Assembly: GCA_016194975.1 (NCBI GenBank)
Contig: JACQAM010000028.1
Span: 1-51,439 of the forward strand
DNA: 51,439 nucleotides
Source of the DNA: Bacteroidota bacterium
GTDB taxonomy: Bacteria; Bacteroidota; Bacteroidia; Palsa-965
Direction: 5' to 3'
In this document: one piece after another, positions 7,619-45,391 of the stretch
How positions within the stretch are numbered: position 1 is the stretch's first letter
Layout: every line of letters begins with the position of its first letter
Translations under genes and position numbers: made by a program
The notes under the pieces: generated by a model
The model's database searches: none
Seen by the model: only the letters and a program-made list of their open reading frames with translations
Told to the model about the DNA's origin: nothing

Positions 7619-9223
7619 ATGGCCGCAGCAGCAACACTTTCCCCGAGACAGAAGATGATAGGAATGATGTACCTCGTACTCACCGCACTTCTTGCACTGA
7701 ATGTAGCGAAAGAAATTCTCGACGCATTCGTAACCGTGAACAACGGTCTTGAACACACCAACCGCAGTTTTGATAAAGACATCAATTCTCTTTACGCAAA
7801 ATTCGACGAAAAGAAAAGTGTGGATCCAACGCGTGTAACGCCGAACTGGAATAAAGCGCAGGACGCAAAAAAAATGTCGAAAGATCTCGACGACTATCTC
7901 GTGAATCTGAAACGGAGATTGCTTCGCGAAAGTGAAGGATTCAAAAATCACGAGGAAGACACACTCAATCTTGCCAACCTCGACGGAAAAGAAAAATATG
8001 ATGCGACTACAAATATTCTTTGCGGAGATGCTGAAGACGGCAACAACGGCGCGGCGCATGATCTGCGTTTAAAACTCGCAAAATATAAAAGTGACATGAT
8101 CGGGTTGCTTACCGCCGAAGACCAGAAAAGCATGCACCTGAATCTTGAAACTCCGGATCCCACTGATGGCGGAGAATTCCATACGTGGGAAATGAAAAGT
8201 TTTTATCACACTCCCATCGCTGCCGACATTACGATTCTTTCCAAAATTCAGAATGATGTGAAAGGTGCGCAGGCCGATGTGGTGGATGCATTGCTCCGCG
8301 AAACAGATTCCGATATCATTCCCTTCGACACCGTTGCAGCACGCGTTATTGCACAAACAAATTATGTGATACAGGGTGAACCTTACAACGCGCAAATATT
8401 TCTCGCTGCATTCAACAAAACTCTTTCGCCACAGATTCTCGTTGGAACGTACGATCCGGCAACCGGAAAAATGACGGGCGCTTACGATTCGCTTCATGTG
8501 CAGAACGGAATGGGAATTTATAATGTGAATACGGCAGACGAAGGAATTTTCAAATACAGCGGCGTGATCAATATGAAAACTCCGAAGGGCGCGATCCGTC
8601 AATATCCGTTCGAACAGGAATATATTGTTGCACGTCCTGCACTCACCGTGAGTGCCGATAAAATGAACGTGATGTATGCAGGACTCGATAACCCTATCAC
8701 GGTTTCTGTTCCCGGTTTTGCCAATGAGAAAACGCACGTGACGGTGAATAACGGAACATTAGTGCCGCTCGGAAACGGAAAATTCACCGTGAAAAATCTG
8801 AAAGCAGGAAAATGTGTGGTGGCTGTGAGTGTTGACGACCAGGATGGAAAACCACGGAGCATGGGCACTATGGAATTCCGGGTAAAGAATTTACCAACGC
8901 CTATCGTTTATCCGAGTGGTGTTACAACACAACGCATTTCCGCAACAAAAATGGGAAATACACTCGGGCTCGTTTGTAAATACGGTGACGATTTCAATTT
9001 CGCGGCACAAGCGAACGTAGTTTCTTTCGATCTGAATATCTCTGATAAGTCGGGCGATAAATATGATAAAGAAGGAATCGCAGGAAAAGTTCTTCCTGAA
9101 GTGGCAAAATCAGCAATACGGAATTCAAAACGCGGAACACGCGTATCGTTCACGAATGTTTTTGCGATAGGCGCCGACGGAGTGAAACTGCATTGCCCCG
9201 ATATGGTTTACATCATTCAGTAA
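7619..9223 (+). CDS. gldM: Gliding motility / type IX secretion motor protein GldM
   Basis: A 534-residue GldM homologue, close to the usual length of about 510-530. The N-terminus is diagnostic: LSPRQKMIGMMYLVLTALLA, a short cytoplasmic tail followed by the single transmembrane helix (about residues 11-33) and a long periplasmic part made of helical and Ig-like domains. With GldL, GldM forms the proton-driven rotary motor of the T9SS and of gliding, and it contacts the GldK/GldN ring. Here it stands alone: none of gldK, gldL or gldN is adjacent. The two genes before it encode T9SS cargo. It could be a second GldM paralogue or a relocated sole copy. A terminator follows at 9294. Confidence 0.93.
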   Translation: MAAAATLSPRQKMIGMMYLVLTALLALNVAKEILDAFVTVNNGLEHTNRSFDKDINSLYAKFDEKKSVDPTRVTPNWNKAQDAKKMSKDLDDYLVNLKRRLLRESEGFKNHEEDTLNLANLDGKEKYDATTNILCGDAEDGNNGAAHDLRLKLAKYKSDMIGLLTAEDQKSMHLNLETPDPTDGGEFHTWEMKSFYHTPIAADITILSKIQNDVKGAQADVVDALLRETDSDIIPFDTVAARVIAQTNYVIQGEPYNAQIFLAAFNKTLSPQILVGTYDPATGKMTGAYDSLHVQNGMGIYNVNTADEGIFKYSGVINMKTPKGAIRQYPFEQEYIVARPALTVSADKMNVMYAGLDNPITVSVPGFANEKTHVTVNNGTLVPLGNGKFTVKNLKAGKCVVAVSVDDQDGKPRSMGTMEFRVKNLPTPIVYPSGVTTQRISATKMGNTLGLVCKYGDDFNFAAQANVVSFDLNISDKSGDKYDKEGIAGKVLPEVAKSAIRNSKRGTRVSFTNVFAIGADGVKLHCPDMVYIIQ

Positions 9224-9224
9224 C

Positions 9225-9290
9225 TTCTCTGAGTAGCGAGCGGAATTAAATCACTTGCCTCAAGAGGTTGCGGCAAGTGGGCTCAGAGAA
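9225..9290 (+). promoter_or_regulatory. Two-stem structured region after gldM
   Basis: TTCTCTGAG (9225-9233) pairs perfectly with CTCAGAGAA (9282-9290). Nested inside, CACTTGCC (9252-9259) pairs with GGCAAGTG (9272-9279). It starts 2 nt after the gldM stop codon and precedes the terminator, so it would lie in the gldM 3' UTR. Its function is unknown. Confidence 0.5.
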
Positions 9291-9293
9291 AAC

Positions 9294-9327
9294 AAATCGC
9301 GGTGGAGAAATCTGCCGCGGTTTTTTT
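9294..9327 (+). terminator. Rho-independent terminator of gldM
   Basis: AAATCGCGG pairs with CCGCGGTTT around a 12-nt loop and is followed by a run of T. It lies 70 nt after the gldM stop. Confidence 0.75.
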
Positions 9328-9330
9328 AGG

Positions 9331-9440
9331 AGTACGAAATACGAAAATTCTACTAAGAGGCTGTCTAAAATTGAGTGTTGCGATCCTTTGGCATGGATTC
9401 GTATTTCGTAACTTATAGTAGAATTTTCGTATTTCGTACT
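9331..9440. repeat. Perfect 25-bp inverted repeat flanking a 60-bp core
   Basis: The left arm 9331-9355 (AGTACGAAATACGAAAATTC and 5 more bases) is the exact reverse complement of 9416-9440. A third, inverted partial copy (CGTATTTCGTA) lies in the core near 9400. The core begins AGAGGCTGTCTAAAATT (9356-9372), similar to 51263-51279. The right arm overlaps the stop codon of the convergent nfu-like gene by 2 bases. It could be a MITE-like element or an extragenic palindrome. Confidence 0.8.
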
Positions 9441-10053
9441 ACACCGCCACCACTTCCATCACGCCGGGCACCATTCTTTTCAGCAGTGCTTCTATTCCTG
9501 CTTTCAGTGTGATCGTCGATGAAGGACAGCCATGGCACGATCCGCGCAGTTGCACGCGCACGATTCCGTTCTCAAATGATTCGAAGGTGATGAGCCCGCC
9601 ATCCTGCTCCACTGCGGGGCGAATATATTGTTCCAGCACTTCCACAATTTTCATTTCCATTTCATTCTGCGGAACGGCGTGCTCCGTAAAAACAGAAGTG
9701 GTATTTTCAAATGTGGAATCGGTGGCAATATTTTTTTTCGGCAATTCATCGATCACAGAATTTCCTTTCTGCAGATAATCGCGGAGAAATTCGCGCATCT
9801 CGCCAAGGATATCTTCCCATCCTATAGAATCTGATTTGGTAATGGAAACATAATTCGCCGAGATGAAAACATTTTTCACGAACGGGAATTTAAAAAGTTT
9901 TGCCGGCAGCGGAGCTTGAGCAGTTTCTCCCGCATTCCTGTAATTCGCAGTTGCGCCGTCTGCAATCAGAATCCTGTTTGCCACAAATTTCATCGACGCC
10001 GGGTTGGGCGTGCTCTCGCCGTAAATGATCACCGGAATTTCTTTGGTTTCCAT
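9439..10053 (-). CDS. Nfu-type iron-sulfur cluster carrier (NifU-like)
   Basis: A 204-residue protein from the chosen start METKEIPVIIYGESTPNPAS. It has an N-terminal Nfu_N domain (TPNPASMKF motif) followed by a C-terminal NifU domain with the cluster-binding CxxC in RGSCHGCPSSTITLK. It carries and delivers 4Fe-4S clusters to client proteins in the cytoplasm. A longer frame continues upstream to 10164, but those 37 residues do not resemble the family and would run through the promoter-like TACCTTTA (10058-10065), so the start at 10053 is preferred. That box is 4 nt before the ATG. It is convergent with gldM. Confidence 0.9.
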   Translation of the reverse strand: METKEIPVIIYGESTPNPASMKFVANRILIADGATANYRNAGETAQAPLPAKLFKFPFVKNVFISANYVSITKSDSIGWEDILGEMREFLRDYLQKGNSVIDELPKKNIATDSTFENTTSVFTEHAVPQNEMEMKIVEVLEQYIRPAVEQDGGLITFESFENGIVRVQLRGSCHGCPSSTITLKAGIEALLKRMVPGVMEVVAV

Positions 10054-10215
10054 AGTGTAAAGGTACGAAGCTGGAACGGAATTCGGAAGATGCGGATCTG
10101 CGGAAAGTTTGCAAAAAGCAGTTTCTGTGGAAAGGAATTTCCGATCTTCTTCCGGTGATTCCAATTCTGCAAGTCCGCATTTTCCGAATTCCGTTCCCCA
10201 TTCAACAATCTAAAA

Positions 10216-11310
10216 TCAACAATCAAGAATCGCTTTCTCTCTTCCCAACACCTTCAGCGTTCTTACGTGCGAAGCCAGCGCCGTGAAAAAAGTGCGTTTC
10301 TGATTGTAGGGCAAACCGAATTCTTTTGCAGTGCGTTCCACTATCGGTGATATCTTTTTGTAATGTACGTGGCTGATGTTCGGAAATAAATGATGTTCGA
10401 TCTGGAAATTAAGTCCGCCTATGAACCAACTCATCAATCGGCTCTTGCGTGCAAAATTTGCAGTTGTGTGCATTTCGTGAACAGCCCATTCATTTTCAAT
10501 ATTGCCTTCGGTGTTCAATGTCGGCTGCTCGGCACCTTCCACCACATGCGCCATCTGGAAAATTATGCTCATGATTATTCCTGCCGTGAGATGTACAATA
10601 ACGAATACGAGAAGCAGTTGCCACCAGGCAAATGGTGCAATAAGCATTGGCAGTCCGATCACAACAAAAAGATAAATTGCTTTACTCAGTATAAGAATGA
10701 AAAATTCACGCGCCGGTTTTTTCTTCTGATCTTTCAGAATTCCTTTTTTATTGTATTCTCTCAGTTGGAAAAAATCACCGCTGAATTTAGTCAGCGTCAT
10801 CAGGCAATAAAAAAAGAAAGCATAAATGTGCTGGAAGCGGTGAATTTTTTTCAGCGGCTCTTCGTGGCTCATGCGTATCACCACGCGCGAGCGTATGTCT
10901 TCATCAAAACCGTTTATGTTCGTGAATGTGTGGTGCAGAATATTGTGCTGCATTTTCCAGTTAAAAACATTTCCGCCTATCATGTACATCGTGCTGCCGA
11001 ATAAATTATTCATCCAGTTCATTTTTGAAAATGATCCGTGCATCGCATCGTGCATCACGCCCATTCCCGTTCCCGCCATTCCCACGCCCATCACCACGGC
11101 AAGCAGCAGCAGCATCCACACACTCATCGGCAAAAAAAGTATCAGCACAAAAGGAGCAAGATAAAGACTCAGCATCGCCGCCGATTTGAAAAGCATCCTT
11201 CCACCGCCTTTCATTGAAATTTTTTTCTCTTTAAAATAAGCATTCACATTTTTTCTCACCGCCGTTGCAAACTGCAACTTGTCGTTATCTATAAACCGGA
11301 TTGTTTTCAT
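10216..11310 (-). CDS. Membrane fatty acid desaturase (linoleoyl-CoA/acyl-lipid type)
   Basis: A 364-residue integral membrane di-iron desaturase. The three histidine boxes are HDAMHGSF (from about residue 87), HNILHHTFTN (about 122) and the C-terminal QIEHHLFPNISHVHY, whose QxxHH form is typical of front-end and acyl-lipid desaturases. Hydrophobic pairs lie between the boxes. It inserts double bonds into membrane lipid acyl chains, probably to tune fluidity. The start MKTIRFIDNDKLQF was chosen because the upstream residues of the open frame are not family-like. MPQKRK, six codons earlier at 11328, is an alternative start. Confidence 0.9.
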   Translation of the reverse strand: MKTIRFIDNDKLQFATAVRKNVNAYFKEKKISMKGGGRMLFKSAAMLSLYLAPFVLILFLPMSVWMLLLLAVVMGVGMAGTGMGVMHDAMHGSFSKMNWMNNLFGSTMYMIGGNVFNWKMQHNILHHTFTNINGFDEDIRSRVVIRMSHEEPLKKIHRFQHIYAFFFYCLMTLTKFSGDFFQLREYNKKGILKDQKKKPAREFFILILSKAIYLFVVIGLPMLIAPFAWWQLLLVFVIVHLTAGIIMSIIFQMAHVVEGAEQPTLNTEGNIENEWAVHEMHTTANFARKSRLMSWFIGGLNFQIEHHLFPNISHVHYKKISPIVERTAKEFGLPYNQKRTFFTALASHVRTLKVLGREKAILDC

Positions 11311-11539
11311 TTTTCTTTTTTGGGGCATTAGTTCAGCGAGGGTAAAAAAAATCATCCGCTCGCGGAAAAATAAACTGTTATAGGATCGGGGAAGAATAGA
11401 ATTGCAGCCCACATGTCAAACCTGCGCCTGAACTTTTCCTTGCACATTAAAGGTAAACTTTTATTTTACTTTTCCATTCTCACTTTCTGTCCACTCCCGA
11501 ATTTATTTAACACACTATAACGTTGAAAAATATTTTTTT

Positions 11540-11618
11540 GGGCGTGTCCCCGTCCTTCGACAAGCTCAGGATCGGGCCGGGCTATCCGGTCGGCGGAGCT
11601 CCCTCCTATCCCTCACGC
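11540..11618. repeat. Structured extragenic element of about 79 bp
   Basis: The 418-bp gap between the desaturase gene and nadB contains a compact GC-rich element. It begins GGGCGTGTCCCC, continues CTTCGACAAGCTCAGG and GGGCCGGGCTATCCG, and ends CTCCTATCCCTCACGC. GCGTG at 11542-11546 is complementary to CACGC at 11614-11618, so its ends can pair. From memory, similar strings recur in gaps of other Bacteroidota genomes, but I cannot check this here. The rest of the gap is AT-rich and shows no gene. Confidence 0.55.
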
Positions 11619-11713
11619 AAAATTTTCAAATTCACTATTTGTATATTCACATTCATTGGTAATTCGCATTTTCGTAAAATCCGTAATCTGTATATCTGTA
11701 ATCCTCCCCACTG

Positions 11714-11721
11714 TATCTTTG
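11714..11721 (+). promoter_or_regulatory. -7 promoter box TATCTTTG for nadB
   Basis: An exact TAnnTTTG match that ends 7 nt before the nadB ATG. It implies transcription starting at or next to the start codon. Confidence 0.55.
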
Positions 11722-11728
11722 TTCCCTA

Positions 11729-13348
11729 ATGTCACAACAGCAAACAGATTTTCTCATCATTGGCAGCGGAATCGCCGGACTTACTTATGCTTTAAAAGTT
11801 GCTGCGCATGGAAAAGTGATGATGATCACCAAGGCAAATGAAGATGAGTCGAACACGAAATATGCGCAGGGAGGAATTGCTGCGGTTCTTTACAAACCCG
11901 ATTCTTATAACAAACACATTGAAGACACGCTGAAGTGCGGCGACGGATTGTGCAATGAAGAAATTGTGCGCATGGTCATTGGAGAATCTACCGAACGTGT
12001 GATGGAACTTGCAGAATGGGGCGCAAATTTCGACAAGACTCCCACCGGCGATTACGAGCTCGCACGCGAAGGAGGGCATTCCGAAAAAAGAATTCTTCAT
12101 CACAAAGACATCACCGGTTATGAAATAGAACGCGCACTGCTCGAACAAGTGCATTCACATCCAAACATAAAAATTCTCGATCATCATTTCGCAGTAGAAA
12201 TTATTACGCAACATCATCTCGGCATAGAAGTGAATTCGCGCACACCCGACATTACGTGCTTCGGCGCGTATGTGATGAATACAAAATCAAATCAGGTGGA
12301 AACTATTCTCGCGCGCGTCACGCTTATGGCCACAGGCGGCGCGGGGCACGTGTACGCGATCACCACCAATCCCACTATTGCAACAGGCGACGGAATTGCA
12401 ATGGTGTATCGCGCAAAAGGAAAAGTAGAGAACATGGAATTCATGCAATTTCATCCCACGTCACTCTACAATCCGGGCGAACGCCCTTCGTTTCTCATCA
12501 CCGAAGCCATGCGTGGCCACGGAGGAATTCTGCGCACACGTGACGCCCGCCTGCCTGCCCGCGCAAGTTTGGGCGGGAATGACAAAGTCGGGCAGGGAAA
12601 AGAATTCATGCAGAAGTATGATGCACGCAAATCATTAGCACCACGTGACATTGTTGCAAGGGCGATTGACAACGAAATGAAATCATCGGGCGACGATTTT
12701 GTTTATCTCGACTGCACACATCTCGATGCGGAAGATCTGAAAAAACATTTTCCGAATATTTATAAAAAATGTTCCGGCATCGGCATTGACATCACAAAAC
12801 AAATGATCCCGGTTGTTCCTGCGGCGCATTATCTCTGCGGTGGAATTAAAGTAGATAAGAACGGGCAAAGCAGCATTCTGAATTTGTACGCCGTTGGGGA
12901 ATGTTCCTGCACCGGCTTGCACGGCGCAAATCGTCTCGCATCAAATTCTTTGCTCGAGGCAGTGGTGTATGCGCACACAGCAAGTCAGGATGGAATTATT
13001 AAATTCAAAAATATTTCATTCGAAAAAAATATCCCTTCGTGGAATACAGAAGGAACAGAAGCTCCGGAAGAAATGGTACTCATCACGCAATCGCTGAAAG
13101 AAGTACAGAACATCATGAGCAGTTACGTGGGAATTGTGAGAAGTAATTTACGTTTGCAACGCGCACACGATCGATTGGAAATTCTGTGGCACGAGAATGA
13201 AGCGTTGTACAAAAAGATCACGCTCTCGCAAACCGTTTGCGAATTGCGCAACATCATCAACGTAGCGTACATCATCATTAAGCAAGCGAGAGAACGGAAA
13301 GAAAGCCGTGGGTTGCATTACTCATTGGATTATCCGCCGGTGAAGTAG
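11729..13348 (+). CDS. nadB: L-aspartate oxidase
   Basis: A 539-residue flavoenzyme that oxidises L-aspartate to iminoaspartate, the first step of NAD synthesis. The FAD-binding GSGIAGL is at residues 12-18. Other family motifs are YAQGGIAAV, HHKDITGYEIERAL, EFMQFHPTSLYNPG, LAPRDIVARAID, PAAHYLCGGI and GLHGANRLASNSLLE. Oddity: between RTRD and GKEFMQKYD lies ARLPARASLGGNDKVGQ (about residues 273-289), which NadB homologues lack as far as I recall. It is encoded by a GC-rich palindromic stretch at 12545-12595, and removing it restores the expected LRTRDGKEFMQKYD. No nadA or nadC is adjacent. Confidence 0.95.
   Translation: MSQQQTDFLIIGSGIAGLTYALKVAAHGKVMMITKANEDESNTKYAQGGIAAVLYKPDSYNKHIEDTLKCGDGLCNEEIVRMVIGESTERVMELAEWGANFDKTPTGDYELAREGGHSEKRILHHKDITGYEIERALLEQVHSHPNIKILDHHFAVEIITQHHLGIEVNSRTPDITCFGAYVMNTKSNQVETILARVTLMATGGAGHVYAITTNPTIATGDGIAMVYRAKGKVENMEFMQFHPTSLYNPGERPSFLITEAMRGHGGILRTRDARLPARASLGGNDKVGQGKEFMQKYDARKSLAPRDIVARAIDNEMKSSGDDFVYLDCTHLDAEDLKKHFPNIYKKCSGIGIDITKQMIPVVPAAHYLCGGIKVDKNGQSSILNLYAVGECSCTGLHGANRLASNSLLEAVVYAHTASQDGIIKFKNISFEKNIPSWNTEGTEAPEEMVLITQSLKEVQNIMSSYVGIVRSNLRLQRAHDRLEILWHENEALYKKITLSQTVCELRNIINVAYIIIKQARERKESRGLHYSLDYPPVK
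12545..12596 (+). repeat. Palindromic repeat inserted in frame in nadB
   Basis: CCTGCCCG (12554-12561) pairs with CGGGCAGG (12589-12596), and CCCGC (12558-12562) can also pair with GCGGG (12573-12577). The sequence resembles the extragenic palindrome at 41699-41740. It adds 17 codons to nadB without breaking the frame. Confidence 0.7.
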
Positions 13349-13382
13349 TGGTCAGCGGCAGTATGCAGAAAAGAAATTTCCG

Positions 13383-13400
13383 CCCCTGACAACTGGCACT
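13383..13400. repeat. 18-bp extragenic word also present inside murI
   Basis: CCCCTGACAACTGGCACT in the gap after nadB is identical to 14578-14595, which lies inside the murI reading frame. Confidence 0.8.
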
Positions 13401-13516
13401 AACTTTTCGGCTCGGATTTTGCCGTTAAACCTAAGTATCATGCAAGATATTTTTATTCCGTTCACATTTGAAAGAAAATGAAAACAATAATTAACTTCAT
13501 CCAATAAATCACCAAC

Positions 13517-13870
13517 ATGAAAAATATTCTGAAAGTTTCAATCTGCGCATTTCTTATGGCATTCATTACGCCGCTGAAAATGAATGCGCAGGCAGCCAAT
13601 GTAACACAAACCGTGAAGATCAAAACTTCTGCCGAATGCGATATGTGCAAATCAAGAATTGAAAAAGAAGTGCGGGCAATGAAAGGTGTGAAGAGCGCCG
13701 ATCTTGATCTCACCACAAAAATCCTCACCGTGGAATACAATCCGAAAAAAATTTCACCCGAAAATATCCGCACAGCTATTTCCAACATCGGTTACGATGC
13801 CGACGATGTGAAAGCAAATAACCGCTCTCAGAAAGAACTGCCGAAGTGCTGCCATCCGCCGAAAAATTGA
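13517..13870 (+). CDS. Exported heavy-metal-associated (HMA) domain protein
   Basis: A 117-residue protein with a signal peptide (residues 1-26, ending MNAQA) and one HMA domain. The metal-binding CxxC is Cys41-Asp-Met-Cys44. The fold GVKSADLDLTTKILTVEYNP and the tail AISNIGYDADD are typical of the family. The C-terminus ends in an extra cysteine/histidine cluster, CCHPPKN, which may add a second metal site. It probably binds copper or a similar soft metal in the periplasm. A -7-like box CACATTTG is at 13463-13470. The next gene starts 4 nt downstream and is probably co-transcribed. Confidence 0.85.
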   Translation: MKNILKVSICAFLMAFITPLKMNAQAANVTQTVKIKTSAECDMCKSRIEKEVRAMKGVKSADLDLTTKILTVEYNPKKISPENIRTAISNIGYDADDVKANNRSQKELPKCCHPPKN

Positions 13871-13874
13871 ATCC

Positions 13875-14387
13875 ATGCCATTAATACTCCCGGTAAAAGG
13901 TATCTCTCCCAAATTCGGAAACGATTGTTTCATTGCTGAAAATGCAACCCTTGTTGGCGATGTTGTCTGCGGCGATCAATGCAGTTTCTGGTTCAACGCT
14001 GTTGTGCGCGGCGATGTGAATTCCATTCGCATGGGAAATAAAGTAAATGTGCAGGATGGCGCGGTCATTCATTGCACTTACGAAAAAACAAAAGTGAATA
14101 TCGGTAACCATGTTTCCATCGGGCACAACGCGCTCGTACACGGATGCACGCTGGAGGATAATGTACTCGTGGGCATGGGCGCGATCGTCATGGACAACGC
14201 GCACGTGGGAAGCAACACCATCATCGGCGCGGGAGCAGTAGTGACGGAAGGAATGAAATGCGAAGCGAATGCTGTTTACGCCGGAGTTCCCGCGAAAAAA
14301 ATAAAAGATATTTCTCCCGAATTACAGAAAGGTGAAGTGGATAGGATCGCGAATAATTATGTGCTGTATTCGAGTTGGTTCAAATAG
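13875..14387 (+). CDS. Gamma-carbonic anhydrase family protein
   Basis: A 170-residue left-handed beta-helix protein built of hexapeptide repeats (for example NVLVGMGAIVMDNAHVGSNT). Gamma-class features are the NAVVRGDVNSIRMG segment, NVQDGAVIHC and the histidines in NHVSIGHNALVHGC that would bind the trimer's metal. It ends with a short helix (RIANNYVLYSSWFK). Homologues act as carbonic anhydrases or unassigned YrdA-like proteins, so catalytic activity is not certain. It starts 4 nt after the HMA gene, and shared expression is likely. Confidence 0.88.
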   Translation: MPLILPVKGISPKFGNDCFIAENATLVGDVVCGDQCSFWFNAVVRGDVNSIRMGNKVNVQDGAVIHCTYEKTKVNIGNHVSIGHNALVHGCTLEDNVLVGMGAIVMDNAHVGSNTIIGAGAVVTEGMKCEANAVYAGVPAKKIKDISPELQKGEVDRIANNYVLYSSWFK

Positions 14388-14471
14388 GGAACTAACTGCG
14401 AACAATTCGAGAAAGTTTGAGATCAATCCGTGCAAATCAGTGCGCTCCGTGACAAATTTCCGGCGTTGGTA

Positions 14472-15305
14472 TCAATCCAACTGCGGCTTCATCACTACAT
14501 CCGCATTCTTCCCGGTCAGCTTTAAAAAAATATCATTGAATTTTTGCGGATCTCCACTGGTGCAATAGATGGTTTCTCCCCTGACAACTGGCACTGACAA
14601 CTGTTTTTCCTCTCCGCCCTCTGACCTCCGCCCTCCACTCTCCTCAAGAATTTTTTTCACCTGTTTCGCAATTGCCGGTGCCGGATCGATAACGCGAACT
14701 TTATCTCCCAGAATTTTTTCTATGAGCGGGCGCACGAACGGGTAATGCGTGCACGCAAGAACCAGTGCATCAATATTTTTTTCTTTCATCGGTTCCAGCC
14801 ATCCGCGCAGCATTTTTTCTGTCGCCGGCGAATCCAATTCTCCATTTTCAATTTGCTGCACTAATCCCGGGCAGGGTTGGTTGATCACTTTTACATTTTG
14901 CGCAAAACGTTCTACCACGCTGGCAAATAATTCGCCCTGGAAAGTTGCAGTCGTTGCAATCACTCCCACCACGCCGGTTTGTGTTTGCTCTGCTGCAGGT
15001 TTCACAGCGGGTTCCATTCCCACGAACAAAACACCCGGATGTTTTTCGCGAAGATATTTCAGTGCGGCAGCCGATGCCGTGTTGCATGCAATGACAATGA
15101 TCCTGCATTTTTTTTCCAGAAGGAATTTCACCACGCGTTCACTCAGTACACGGATCTGCTCCATTGTTTTTTCACCATAAGGAAGATTGGCGCTGTCGCC
15201 GAAATAAATAATATTTTCATTCGGCAATAATTCGCGCACCGCGCGCAGCACACTCACACCACCTATGCCCGAATCAAAAATACCTATTGGAGAAATTGAA
15301 TTCAT
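14472..15305 (-). CDS. murI: Glutamate racemase, with an unusual insert
   Basis: A 277-residue cytoplasmic racemase supplying D-glutamate for peptidoglycan. Motifs: IGIFDSGIGG with Asp11, YFGDSANLPYGEK, IACNTASAA with catalytic Cys74, and LVLACTHYPF with catalytic Cys185 and His187. Oddity: residues about 223-243 (ESGGRRSEGGEEKQLSVPVV) form a low-complexity insert before the conserved TIYCTSGDPQKF. Its DNA (about 14576-14645) is made of extragenic-type repeats, including an 18-mer identical to the gap at 13383-13400. The insert lies near the C-terminus, away from the catalytic residues. It is the last gene of the bamA/ompH block. Confidence 0.93.
   Translation of the reverse strand: MNSISPIGIFDSGIGGVSVLRAVRELLPNENIIYFGDSANLPYGEKTMEQIRVLSERVVKFLLEKKCRIIVIACNTASAAALKYLREKHPGVLFVGMEPAVKPAAEQTQTGVVGVIATTATFQGELFASVVERFAQNVKVINQPCPGLVQQIENGELDSPATEKMLRGWLEPMKEKNIDALVLACTHYPFVRPLIEKILGDKVRVIDPAPAIAKQVKKILEESGGRRSEGGEEKQLSVPVVRGETIYCTSGDPQKFNDIFLKLTGKNADVVMKPQLD
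14576..14645 (-). repeat. Extragenic-type repeat tract inside murI
   Basis: Read in the coding direction, the tract holds two purine-rich near-copies (GGAGGGCGGAGG and GAGGGCGGAG) followed by a direct repeat CAGTTGTCAG-TGC-CAGTTGTCAG. The 18-mer at 14578-14595 also occurs at 13383-13400 in a gap. The frame stays open throughout. Confidence 0.65.
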
Positions 15306-15323
15306 GATCTAAAGTTCCAAAAA

Positions 15324-15375
15324 AAACGAATCCCAAATTCCAATTTATTTTTTTTGGAATTTGGGACTTTTTACT
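15324..15375 (-). terminator. Strong hairpin terminator between ompH and murI
   Basis: TCCCAAATTCCAA (15331-15343) pairs perfectly with TTGGAATTTGGGA (15354-15366), a 13-bp stem with a 10-nt loop. On the minus strand it is followed by a run of T (15317-15325). It lies 47 nt after the ompH stop and could end transcripts of that gene or act as an attenuator before murI. Confidence 0.7.
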
Positions 15376-15412
15376 GCCGCTGCCGCTTTAAACTGCCGCT
15401 GCTGCCTACTGA

Positions 15413-15994
15413 TTAATGTCCGCCTCCGGGAGGTGGTTGCACTGTTCCTCCGCCTGTTCCGGTAGCCACTGCCGGTTTGGGTGCCGGAATTTTCAGTTGA
15501 GCCATCACCAGTGTAAAAATATCGTCGGTCGATTCGGAATAAAGTACATCGGAAGCTTCCGAACTATCGAGTACATATTTGTATCCGTTCTTTTTCGCTA
15601 CATCGGCAACTGCTTTTTTCGCTTCAGCGTTGAGCGGTTTAAGCAATGCATCCTGCAGGGCGGCGAGTTCTGTTTGCGCTTCCTGCGAATAGATCGCATA
15701 ATTCTGCTGCATATCGCTCAATTGTTTTTCTGCAAGTTTAATGTTGAGTGCGGTCATGTATTTCCGCTGGCTGTCGAGCTGGTTTGATTTGTAACTGTAC
15801 TCCTGCTCCATTGCATCGAGCGTTTTCTGGTAGGACAAACCGACTTTCGTGAGCGAATCTTTTACTTTCTGATACTTTGGCCAGATATTGTAAAGTGAAT
15901 CCATGTCGAGGTGAGCGATCTTCTGGGCGCCTGCATTGAGCGGCGCAACAAAACTGATGAGGGCAATGACCGCGATGCGCAATAATTTTTTCAT
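15413..15994 (-). CDS. OmpH/Skp-family periplasmic chaperone (second copy)
   Basis: A 193-residue protein with a signal peptide (about 1-23, ending AGAQ). It has the OmpH/Skp pattern: a short beta start (KIAHLDMDSLYNIWPKY), a long coiled coil (about residues 45-125) and a closing DVAKKNGYKYVLDSSE segment. Skp holds unfolded outer-membrane proteins on their way to BamA. A proline/glycine tail (TGTGGGTVQPPPGGGH) follows the domain. It is the last of a bamA-ompH-ompH run, with a 50-nt gap from the first copy. The two copies differ enough to be old paralogues. Confidence 0.88.
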   Translation of the reverse strand: MKKLLRIAVIALISFVAPLNAGAQKIAHLDMDSLYNIWPKYQKVKDSLTKVGLSYQKTLDAMEQEYSYKSNQLDSQRKYMTALNIKLAEKQLSDMQQNYAIYSQEAQTELAALQDALLKPLNAEAKKAVADVAKKNGYKYVLDSSEASDVLYSESTDDIFTLVMAQLKIPAPKPAVATGTGGGTVQPPPGGGH

Positions 15995-16044
15995 TTTTAT
16001 TTTTGGTTTGGTGTATTTGATTTATTTCCGGAATTTTCTGAAAA

Positions 16045-35728: not shown

Positions 35729-37096
35729 ATGAAACGTTTCCTACTGATCGGCGGATCACTTCTTCTTATTCTCATCATCATTGCTGTTGTGAAAAAAGGG
35801 CACAAGCATGATGTGGTGCAGGTGGCGACGGAAAAATCGCATCGCGGAGATATTACCGAGATCGTTTCTGCAAGCGGAAAAGTTCAGCCCGAAGTGGAAG
35901 TGAAAATAAGTTCCGACGTGTCCGGTGAGATCGTTGAACTCATGGTGAAAGAAGGCGACACTGTGAAAAAAGGCGATCTTCTTCTCCGCATCAATCCTGT
36001 CATCTATCAATCGGCTGTCGATCGCATGAATGCAACACTCAACGGATCGAAAGCGCAACTCGCCAATAGCAGCGCACGTTTGGTGCAATCGCAGGCAAAT
36101 TTTGCCAATGCAGAATCTGCTTTCAACCGGAATAAAAAACTGCACGACCAGGGCGCTATCTCCGACGCCGATTTCGAACAGAGCAAAGCAACGTATGAAA
36201 GTGCCCAGGCCGATGTGAATGCTGCAAGTGAAAGTGTGAAGAGCTCCGATTTCAATGTGGGAAGTACAATGGCTTCATTGAAGGAAGCGAATGATAATCT
36301 TGCGAAGACAACGATCTATGCGCCGGTGGGTGGAACCGTTTCGAAACTGAACAAACGAAAAGGTGAACGTGTTGTTGGAACAGCGCAGATGGAAGGAACA
36401 GAAATTCTCCGTCTTGCAAATCTCAATGAAATGGAAGTGCAGGTGGATGTGAATGAAAATGATATTCTGCGCGTCACAGCCGGCGACACGGCGCTCATTG
36501 AAGTGGATGCGCACAACAACAGGAAATTCAAAGGCATCGTGACGGAAGTGGCAAACTCTGCGAATACAACCGGAACTACCACCGACCAGGTGACGAATTT
36601 TCCGGTGAAGATCCGCATCATGCGCGAGTCGTACGAAGATCTCATTGACAAACAACATCCGGATCGTTATGTTTTTCTCCCGGGAATGTCGGCAACAGTT
36701 GAAATTCAAACGAAGTCGGTGCGCAATGTAGTTTCTGTTCCCATTCAATCGGTGACTACGCGCACAGATACGGCTGCTAAACATGGCGTAGATGAAAATG
36801 CAGGTGAAAATTCTTCCGGTGGCGGAGATGACCCGGGAATTGTTTCGGGCGACACGAAAGAAAAAAAGGAAGTGAAAGTTGCTACCGAATGTGTTTTTGT
36901 TTACCGCGAAGGTTATGTAAAACTCATTCCTGTGAAAACAGGTGTCGAAGACAATATGTACATCGAGATCACCAGCGGATTGAAAGAAGGCGATGAAGTG
37001 ATCTCCGCTCCTTACAAAGCGATCAGCACGCAATTGTTCAATAATGCGAAAGTGGAAAAAGTTTCCAAAGAACAATTGTCAGTGGTGGAGGAGTAA
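35729..37096 (+). CDS. MacA/HlyD-type periplasmic adaptor (membrane fusion protein)
   Basis: A 455-residue adaptor anchored by an N-terminal helix (residues 4-22). It has the barrel-sandwich halves GKVQPEVEVKISSDVSGEIV and KTTIYAPVGGTVSKLNKRKG, a coiled-coil hairpin between them (about 95-195) and a beta-barrel part after them. A charged Gly/Ser-rich loop (GENSSGGGDDPG, about residues 365-380) precedes the last domain. It would join TolC to an inner-membrane pump. No ABC or RND pump gene is next to it: tsaB follows. The pump may be elsewhere in the genome. Confidence 0.92.
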   Translation: MKRFLLIGGSLLLILIIIAVVKKGHKHDVVQVATEKSHRGDITEIVSASGKVQPEVEVKISSDVSGEIVELMVKEGDTVKKGDLLLRINPVIYQSAVDRMNATLNGSKAQLANSSARLVQSQANFANAESAFNRNKKLHDQGAISDADFEQSKATYESAQADVNAASESVKSSDFNVGSTMASLKEANDNLAKTTIYAPVGGTVSKLNKRKGERVVGTAQMEGTEILRLANLNEMEVQVDVNENDILRVTAGDTALIEVDAHNNRKFKGIVTEVANSANTTGTTTDQVTNFPVKIRIMRESYEDLIDKQHPDRYVFLPGMSATVEIQTKSVRNVVSVPIQSVTTRTDTAAKHGVDENAGENSSGGGDDPGIVSGDTKEKKEVKVATECVFVYREGYVKLIPVKTGVEDNMYIEITSGLKEGDEVISAPYKAISTQLFNNAKVEKVSKEQLSVVEE

Positions 37097-37099
37097 ATA

Positions 37100-37189
37100 T
37101 TTTTCACTTTTCATTTTTGATTATTGATTGACCAGTTTTTTAATGAATACTGACAAATCAAAAATGCAAAATCAAAAATCAAAAATTCA
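37100..37189. repeat. AT-rich repeated words before tsaB
   Basis: The gap holds TTTTTGATTATTGATTG followed by AATCAAAAATGC and AATCAAAAATCAAAAATTC. The two halves are largely complementary and could fold. The same AATCAACAATC-type words occur at about 10205-10226. Confidence 0.6.
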
Positions 37190-45191: not shown

Positions 45192-45391
45192 TTCGCTATG
45201 CGCATGGGAAGATTACAGATTGTCAGGAATACAGATTACAGATTCAGGTGGATTTACAGACAATATTCTCCCACAAAGCAACCGAGTCCTGTTCGCTATG
45301 CGCATGGGAAGATTACAGATTGTCAGGAATACAGATTACAGATTCAGGTGGATTTACAGACAATATTCTCTCACAAAGCAACCGAGTCCTG
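45192..45391. repeat. 100-bp tandem duplication
   Basis: 45192-45291 and 45292-45391 are the same 100-base unit, differing at one base (C at 45271, T at 45371). The unit contains ACAGATTACAGATTCAGG words. It fills most of the 345-bp gap between the divergent dacB and 45515 genes. Open frames across it are products of the repeat and are not counted as genes. The rest of the gap shows nothing clear. Confidence 0.95.

Follow-up and report, generated by a model that had tools for sequence, protein, structure and literature searches.

A degenerate tract of heptanucleotide repeats has probably taken over a permissive loop of the glutamate racemase MurI in this Bacteroidota genome, lengthening the loop by about 10 residues. 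The gene lies on the minus strand of the window, by which we mean the whole stretch of 51,439 nucleotides that was analysed, as an intact reading frame of 277 aa (14472..15305), and its product matches Pfam PF01177 (E 2.9e-22) and NCBIfam TIGR00067 (207.4 bits, above the cut-off of 146.65). Two of its residues, C74 and C185, which we take to be the catalytic cysteines of glutamate racemase, are invariant across 36 aligned MurI sequences.

An earlier note on this DNA had claimed that the residues before TIYCTSGD are coded by repeat words, and two blocks of words are indeed found inside the intact frame, which contains KKILEESGGRRSEGGEEKQLSVPVVRGETIYCTSGD; at this place, MurI reads GGRRSEGGEEKQLSVPVV. 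The first block (14581..14603, minus strand), found by word search, consists of CTGACAA-family words, which read CAGTTGT CAGTGC CAGTTGT CAG on the coding strand, with spacings of 7, 6 and 7, and code for QLSVPVV. The second (14609..14636, minus strand) consists of the GGAG words GGAGGGC, GGAGGTC, AGAGGGC and GGAGAGG, for which TRF reports periods of 7 and 14, and codes for GGRRSEGGE. Neither block is a long exact tandem array: in the GGAG part, TRF counts no more than 3.6 copies at 77%, and the CTGACAA block, with its one 6-base step, is missing from the TRF list and falls below our lag-7 threshold, which counts against our reading. An endless repetition of GGAGGTC would code for GGRRSEV and one of TTGTCAG for QLSVVSC, in both cases cyclically the same peptide in all three frames. 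TTGTCAG is open in every frame, while the opposite strand, CTGACAA, has stops in all of them; therefore, only the TTGTCAG orientation could be kept in murI, and it is this orientation that the coding strand carries.

The two halves of the insert differ in how they relate to the rest of the genome. The earlier note had placed gap and gene in one sequence family, and this holds for the QLSVPVV half, whose word family, represented by CAGTTGTCAG, is common in gaps (12 occurrences in 85 kb of intergenic DNA versus 6 in 759 kb of coding DNA). The GGRRSEGGE half lends the claim no such support: it has a period of 7, but GGAGGKCRGAGGKC has no copy outside murI in this genome, which also counts against our reading. 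A pattern related to GGAGGKCRGAGGKC is present in 2 of 148 genomes of the phylum, and with the patterns tried, GGAG words were not found as a gap family. Upstream of murI, the window word search found a third ACTG-type tract, ACTGCCGCTGCCGCTTTAAACTGCCGCTGCTGCC (15373..15406, plus strand), and the segment at 15318-15412, just upstream of the gene, forms a strong hairpin of AATTTGGGA words and T runs (z -4.73), which is possibly a terminator.

At the protein level, alignment length and AlphaFold2 pLDDT place the tract in a linker (residues about 223-243; 14577..14639, minus strand) between a helix at 209-222 and a strand at 245-249. In an alignment of 110 MurI sequences, the segment that runs from IAKQV to TSGD is longest here, with 41 residues, followed by lengths of 37, 36 and 35; 70 sequences have 31 and 21 have 30, and the lengths in homologues range from 25 to 41 if L248, which ends at a contig end, is left out. 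This count includes eight sequences that lack the trimming motif, all with a 31-residue linker, and two entries (L014 and L216) that look like the same gene. Some homologues (L218, L224 and L225) also have the RGE that precedes the strand, so the extra part comes to about 10 residues, or about 30 nt, a length that is not divisible by 7 and in that respect counts against a heptamer tract. AlphaFold2, run on 36 sequences, gave a mean pLDDT of 87.3, with residues 230-239 below 50, and the core of the linker is accordingly predicted to be disordered. Conservation of the insert across MurI, which the earlier note had proposed to check by alignment and had named as a refutation of its view, can thus be rejected: with the longest and a length-variable linker, and with pLDDT below 50, the insert is neither conserved nor confidently structured. 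As for the gene as a whole, the closest genome among those searched has a MurI with 74% identity. Among the best 80 of 549 matches, the top named ones are Flavobacteriales/Bacteroidetes MAGs together with many Chloroflexota/Anaerolineae, at about 50-64% identity over the best segment, and most other MurI of the same class are only 31-43% identical. To judge from these identities, a horizontal transfer of murI is likely.

A seven-base periodicity is also present in the gaps of this genome. We used a sample of 844 kb of the assembly, window included, in which genes were called by our own hexamer score and not from annotation, so that some gaps and gene ends are misplaced (85 kb intergenic and 759 kb coding). 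In this sample, exact 5-mers recur at lag 7 at a rate of 10.5/kb in intergenic DNA versus 1.6/kb in coding DNA; other intergenic lags (4-6 and 8-10) give 1.8-5.0/kb, and there are further peaks at 14 and 21. Counted as tracts, the intergenic DNA holds 64 at lag 7, compared with 3-8 at lags 4, 5, 6, 9, 10 and 11 and 32 at lag 8. The gap tracts are short and degenerate, and their words vary from locus to locus (CTGACAA, AACTCAT, AACTGAC, TACGAAA, AAATTGT, AATCTGT and others). Identical units were found in 30 pairs of tracts, whereas 500 draws of random gap heptamers gave 5.8 such pairs on average and at most 18. A common AAY core, seen in 55 of the 64 units versus an expected fraction of 0.665, is suggestive only and was not used. 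Other repeats in the window include a tandem duplication of 100 bases with a 99% match at 45192-45391, containing ACAGATT words, and GTCATTCCGTATAA, present three times about 160 bases apart (38644, 38797 and 38962).

The identity reported by the earlier note between a gap and murI is easily located: CCCCTGACAACTGGCACT occurs on the plus strand at 13383-13400 and at 14578-14595, the former beginning 35 nt past the stop of the preceding frame (11729-13348, nadB by name only). A search of the entire assembly of 4,104,499 bases returned exactly these two sites, and nine occurrences of a shorter word, CTGACAACTGRCA, both 18-mer sites counted in. The further claim that such a match is improbable by chance stands in part. 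With long repeats left in, 54 gap-gene segment pairs of the 844 kb sample share an 18-mer, versus 2-5 in five dinucleotide shuffles, and 203 gap-gap pairs do so, versus 0-1, so that the sharing of 18-mers is a general property of the DNA of this genome. Taken alone, the argument is not a strong one, given that by our own arithmetic from 54 pairs per 844 kb about 0.15 gap-gene pairs would be expected within 1.2 kb, and that a local copy is possible. By itself, the match on CCCCTGACAACTGGCACT does not tell a shared family from such a copy.

The strongest rival explanation is a simple local copy of some 18-35 bp between murI and the nadB gap, in either direction, which would need no genome-wide family and which is compatible with the tract reading. 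Several observations speak for it: the 18-mer is present at two places only, the murI tract and the nadB gap align without gaps over about 35 nt with a score of 21, whereas none of 300 shuffles scored above 13, and the CCCC within the 18-mer coincides with the RGE codons, whose residues are kept in some homologues such as L218, L224 and L225. There is also a parallel in GltX, whose gene has a 20-mer in common with the gap right after its own stop, about 450 bp away. Against it, the word family is far wider than two sites, and a local copy leaves the heptamer make-up unexplained. Moreover, local homogenisation can be rejected as a general rule, since tracts 200-5000 bp apart are no more alike than permuted tracts (70 near pairs among 91 tracts, p 0.90; three window tracts, among them that of murI, lie below the lag-7 threshold and were for that reason added by hand). 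MurI and GltX are two cases of word sharing with nearby gaps among these 70 pairs, which we do not treat as significant. On balance, we regard a local copy as the sole origin of the tract as rather unlikely.

It could also be supposed that an RPE-, REP- or MITE-like mobile palindromic element was inserted in frame, which we judge quite improbable. Inverted partners (score at least 11, within 200 bp) do exist for 26 of the 64 gap tracts, versus 2 of 64 controls, and strong folds were obtained for three of the six stretches of the window that were folded (z -6.65, -4.73 and -4.72). The strongest of these is a long hairpin formed by a pair of TACGAAA words (9330..9440, plus strand), a 20-mer of which is found again at C22:112124; a pair of tracts of AAAATCA words with inverted arms in another gap of the window (37099..37189, plus strand) does not fold strongly (z -1.53 for 37095-37189). 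The murI tract, in contrast, is one-armed and unstructured, with no palindromic fold at 14570-14650 (z +0.69), and the inverted pair GGTCAGCGGCAG ... CTGACAACTGGCACT directly behind the nadB stop (13349..13400, plus strand) forms only a weak hairpin (z -0.82, not significant). No constant ends were seen, words change between loci and between congeners, and Rfam gives no match at 9000-16000. An RNA element was likewise rejected, on the basis of this Rfam result and of the non-significant fold in the nadB gap.

Similar tracts are also found inside other genes of this genome, and the word "extragenic", which the earlier note had used for the tract, is for that reason too narrow. In coding DNA, there are 23 tracts at lag 7 versus 5-15 at lags 4, 5, 8, 10 and 11, an excess of only about 2.4-fold, so that roughly 10 of the 23 may be due to chance. 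The larger numbers at lags 6, 9 and 12 (57, 38 and 31) count against our reading, although they are expected from the codon period. A dictionary of 13-mers made from intergenic tracts matches 38 coding regions, whereas reversed words match 9. Wholly within called genes we find 22 lag-7 tracts, with four more rows at gene edges; by eye, 6 of the 22 resemble signal peptides, and others lie in GltX, IleRS, AroE and PyrD. For GltX, IleRS and AroE, the places of the tracts are loops of variable length among relatives, which is not to say that the tract makes the loop longest: AroE of G003 has about 14 residues more at this loop than AroE of this genome, and the GltX tract fills its loop without lengthening it, both of which count against our reading. 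GltX of G016 carries its own repeat-like QLANGNVQLANLQ at the same loop. PyrD was rejected as an insertion case, since its length is that of most relatives and most residues are kept; thus, chance probably accounts for some of the 22 in-gene tracts, which counts against our reading. In G004, the top match to PyrD (L156, contig C59) has one in-frame TAG. The same ACTG words code for a C-terminal tract, QLSAAV...QLSAAI, in the gene at C12:45523. A 13-mer, TCAGCGGCAGTTG, occurs both in a C-terminal tract of G000 and in the linker that murI of G001 codes for; it hints at an older tract but is too short for a claim.

These counts also bear on a further alternative, namely that a disordered linker of low complexity drifted in the ordinary way and looks heptameric by chance, which would suit the length variation of MurI linkers and the modest coding excess at lag 7, but which we find very improbable, as drift of a protein gives no reason for a period of 7 nt in DNA or for the excess of dictionary words and of 18-mers shared with gaps.

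How a tract of repeats could have come to fill the MurI loop may be pictured as follows. Short tracts of 7-base words are numerous in the gaps of this lineage, and the words would arise and spread through replication slippage or template switching in steps of 7 bases. For a tract to persist within a gene, it would have to pass two filters, namely that the coding strand be free of stops and that the site tolerate variable length. The phase of insertion would not matter, because a heptamer without stops can be read through in any frame and codes cyclically for the same heptapeptide. The MurI loop, which joins the last long helix to the TSGD strand, passes both filters, and it presumably has no catalytic role.

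Repeat words of this kind are not restricted to the genome studied here. One array, AAATTCAAAATTCAAAATTC, built of AAAATTC, is present in 12 of 395 genomes of the phylum and its reversed control in none, and CTGACAACTGACAACTG is present in 24 of 395, with 3 for the reversed control as read off the table. We grouped the 27 matches to the AAAATTC array into 19 sites, of which 10 lie in frames that span 120 codons or more from stop to stop; the nine of these frames given to Pfam (L303 was left out) all have a match. They include IleRS of G025 (another family), LeuRS of G407 and of this genome, TsaC/Sua5, a glycosyltransferase, proteins resembling LuxE and OmpA, a methylmalonyl-CoA mutase and a sugar aminotransferase. 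The last two score under NCBI's cut-offs, as does LeuRS of this genome because it is partial in its locus. IleRS of G025, the one array frame compared with relatives, again has its tract in a length-variable loop to which it adds no length, which counts against our reading. In three related genomes (L203-L205), CTGACAA words code for N-terminal VISCQLSVISGQ and similar sequences that look like signal peptides by eye. In G308, G102 and G266 (L191, L196 and L200), three genomes from another family, a frame that runs into GIFDSG, the start of MurI, has CTGACAACTG arrays at its 5′ end, a match to the racemase family being shown for L191. In L302 (1018-3018, G000:C4), the C-terminal part of the LeuRS of this genome and a nuclease-like DUF559 domain share one frame; our literature search found no paper on DUF559 with leucyl-tRNA synthetase.

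Congeners use different words. For instance, CAGTTGTCAG is found 12 times in 85 kb of gaps here and is absent from 46 kb of gaps of G001, of which 7 kb are N. G003 and G007 show periods of 7 and 14. In G001 and G005 (L082-L101 and L106-L108), gaps contain octamer words (CAACTTTT and GAATTGGT), with a peak at lags 8 and 16 beside or in place of 7, while small samples of G006 (76 kb), G054 (40 kb) and G019 show no lag-7 peak, those of G006 and G054 counting against our reading. Only tentatively can one suggest that a mutational process spread through a lineage of Bacteroidota keeps writing new 7-base words, or 8-base words in some congeners, into gaps, protein loops and signal peptides. Such a process would be a major source of new sequence and new length in the loops of essential enzymes, and its words would turn over from one species to the next within a genus.

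If the phenomenon is general, stop-free heptamer tracts would offer a ready route from non-coding repeat DNA to protein, since they are open in every frame, yield the same cyclic heptapeptide and are present in aminoacyl-tRNA synthetases, MurI, TsaC and AroE. In public genomes, one could then directly count how the variable loops of essential enzymes originate, and annotators would be warned that protein repeats such as KIQNSKF or QLSVVSC are features of the DNA and not of the protein. A search of one literature library gave no text match for KIQNSKF.

Among systems already described, the Rickettsia palindromic elements are longer palindromic units in which a non-coding repeat is kept in frame in housekeeping genes. 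The accommodation in frame is alike, but the murI tract, unlike theirs, is not palindromic. For intergenic heptanucleotide or heptameric repeats in Bacteroidetes, the sole match in that library was the report of MacGregor (2015, PMC4679880), which describes TAACTGA direct repeats in Beggiatoaceae, Cyanobacteria and some Bacteroidetes. These are mostly intergenic and, within ORFs, run in the stop-free direction except for sets at ORF ends; one set lies near the end of MurG, and the in-frame peptide is LSVISYQ. The two systems are alike in that both consist of heptamers that are mainly intergenic and sometimes in ORFs, with QLSVVSC here and LSVISYQ there, and copies well inside frames are stop-free in both, murI using TTGTCAG. 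The unit here, CTGACAA, is one base from the TAACTGA rotation CTGATAA, but it is a different unit: CAGTTATCAG, in which one TAACTGA word meets the next, does not occur in the 844 kb sample. Further differences from the system described in PMC4679880 are that many word families coexist here as short, degenerate tracts, often in inverted pairs, and that in-frame tracts lie in internal loops of essential enzymes. In the Orange Guaymas genome, the sets are mostly just upstream of start codons (PMC4679880). Of the two sites compared here, that of murI is internal and the other is behind the nadB stop.

Over-representation of a unit of 7 has been reported for long simple repeats by Mrazek et al. (2007, as cited in PMC4679880 and PMC4692102), with slippage tied to a 7-base polymerase contact as a proposed cause. 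The unit of 7 is over-represented in our intergenic sample too, but their repeats, as cited there, are long tandem arrays and ours have varying units and few copies. The GGGAATC repeats of Xanthomonas and the GGGGA(C/T)T repeats of Nostoc (Rehm et al. 2015, PMC4692102) are likewise gap heptamers with degenerate units, in Xanthomonas with convergent inverted pairs; those families are G-rich, in contrast to the many non-G-rich families and the coding tracts found here. Thus, the class of repeat is known, and what sets this genome apart as a variant is the mixture of word families, their degeneracy, their inverted pairing and their presence in internal loops of essential enzymes.
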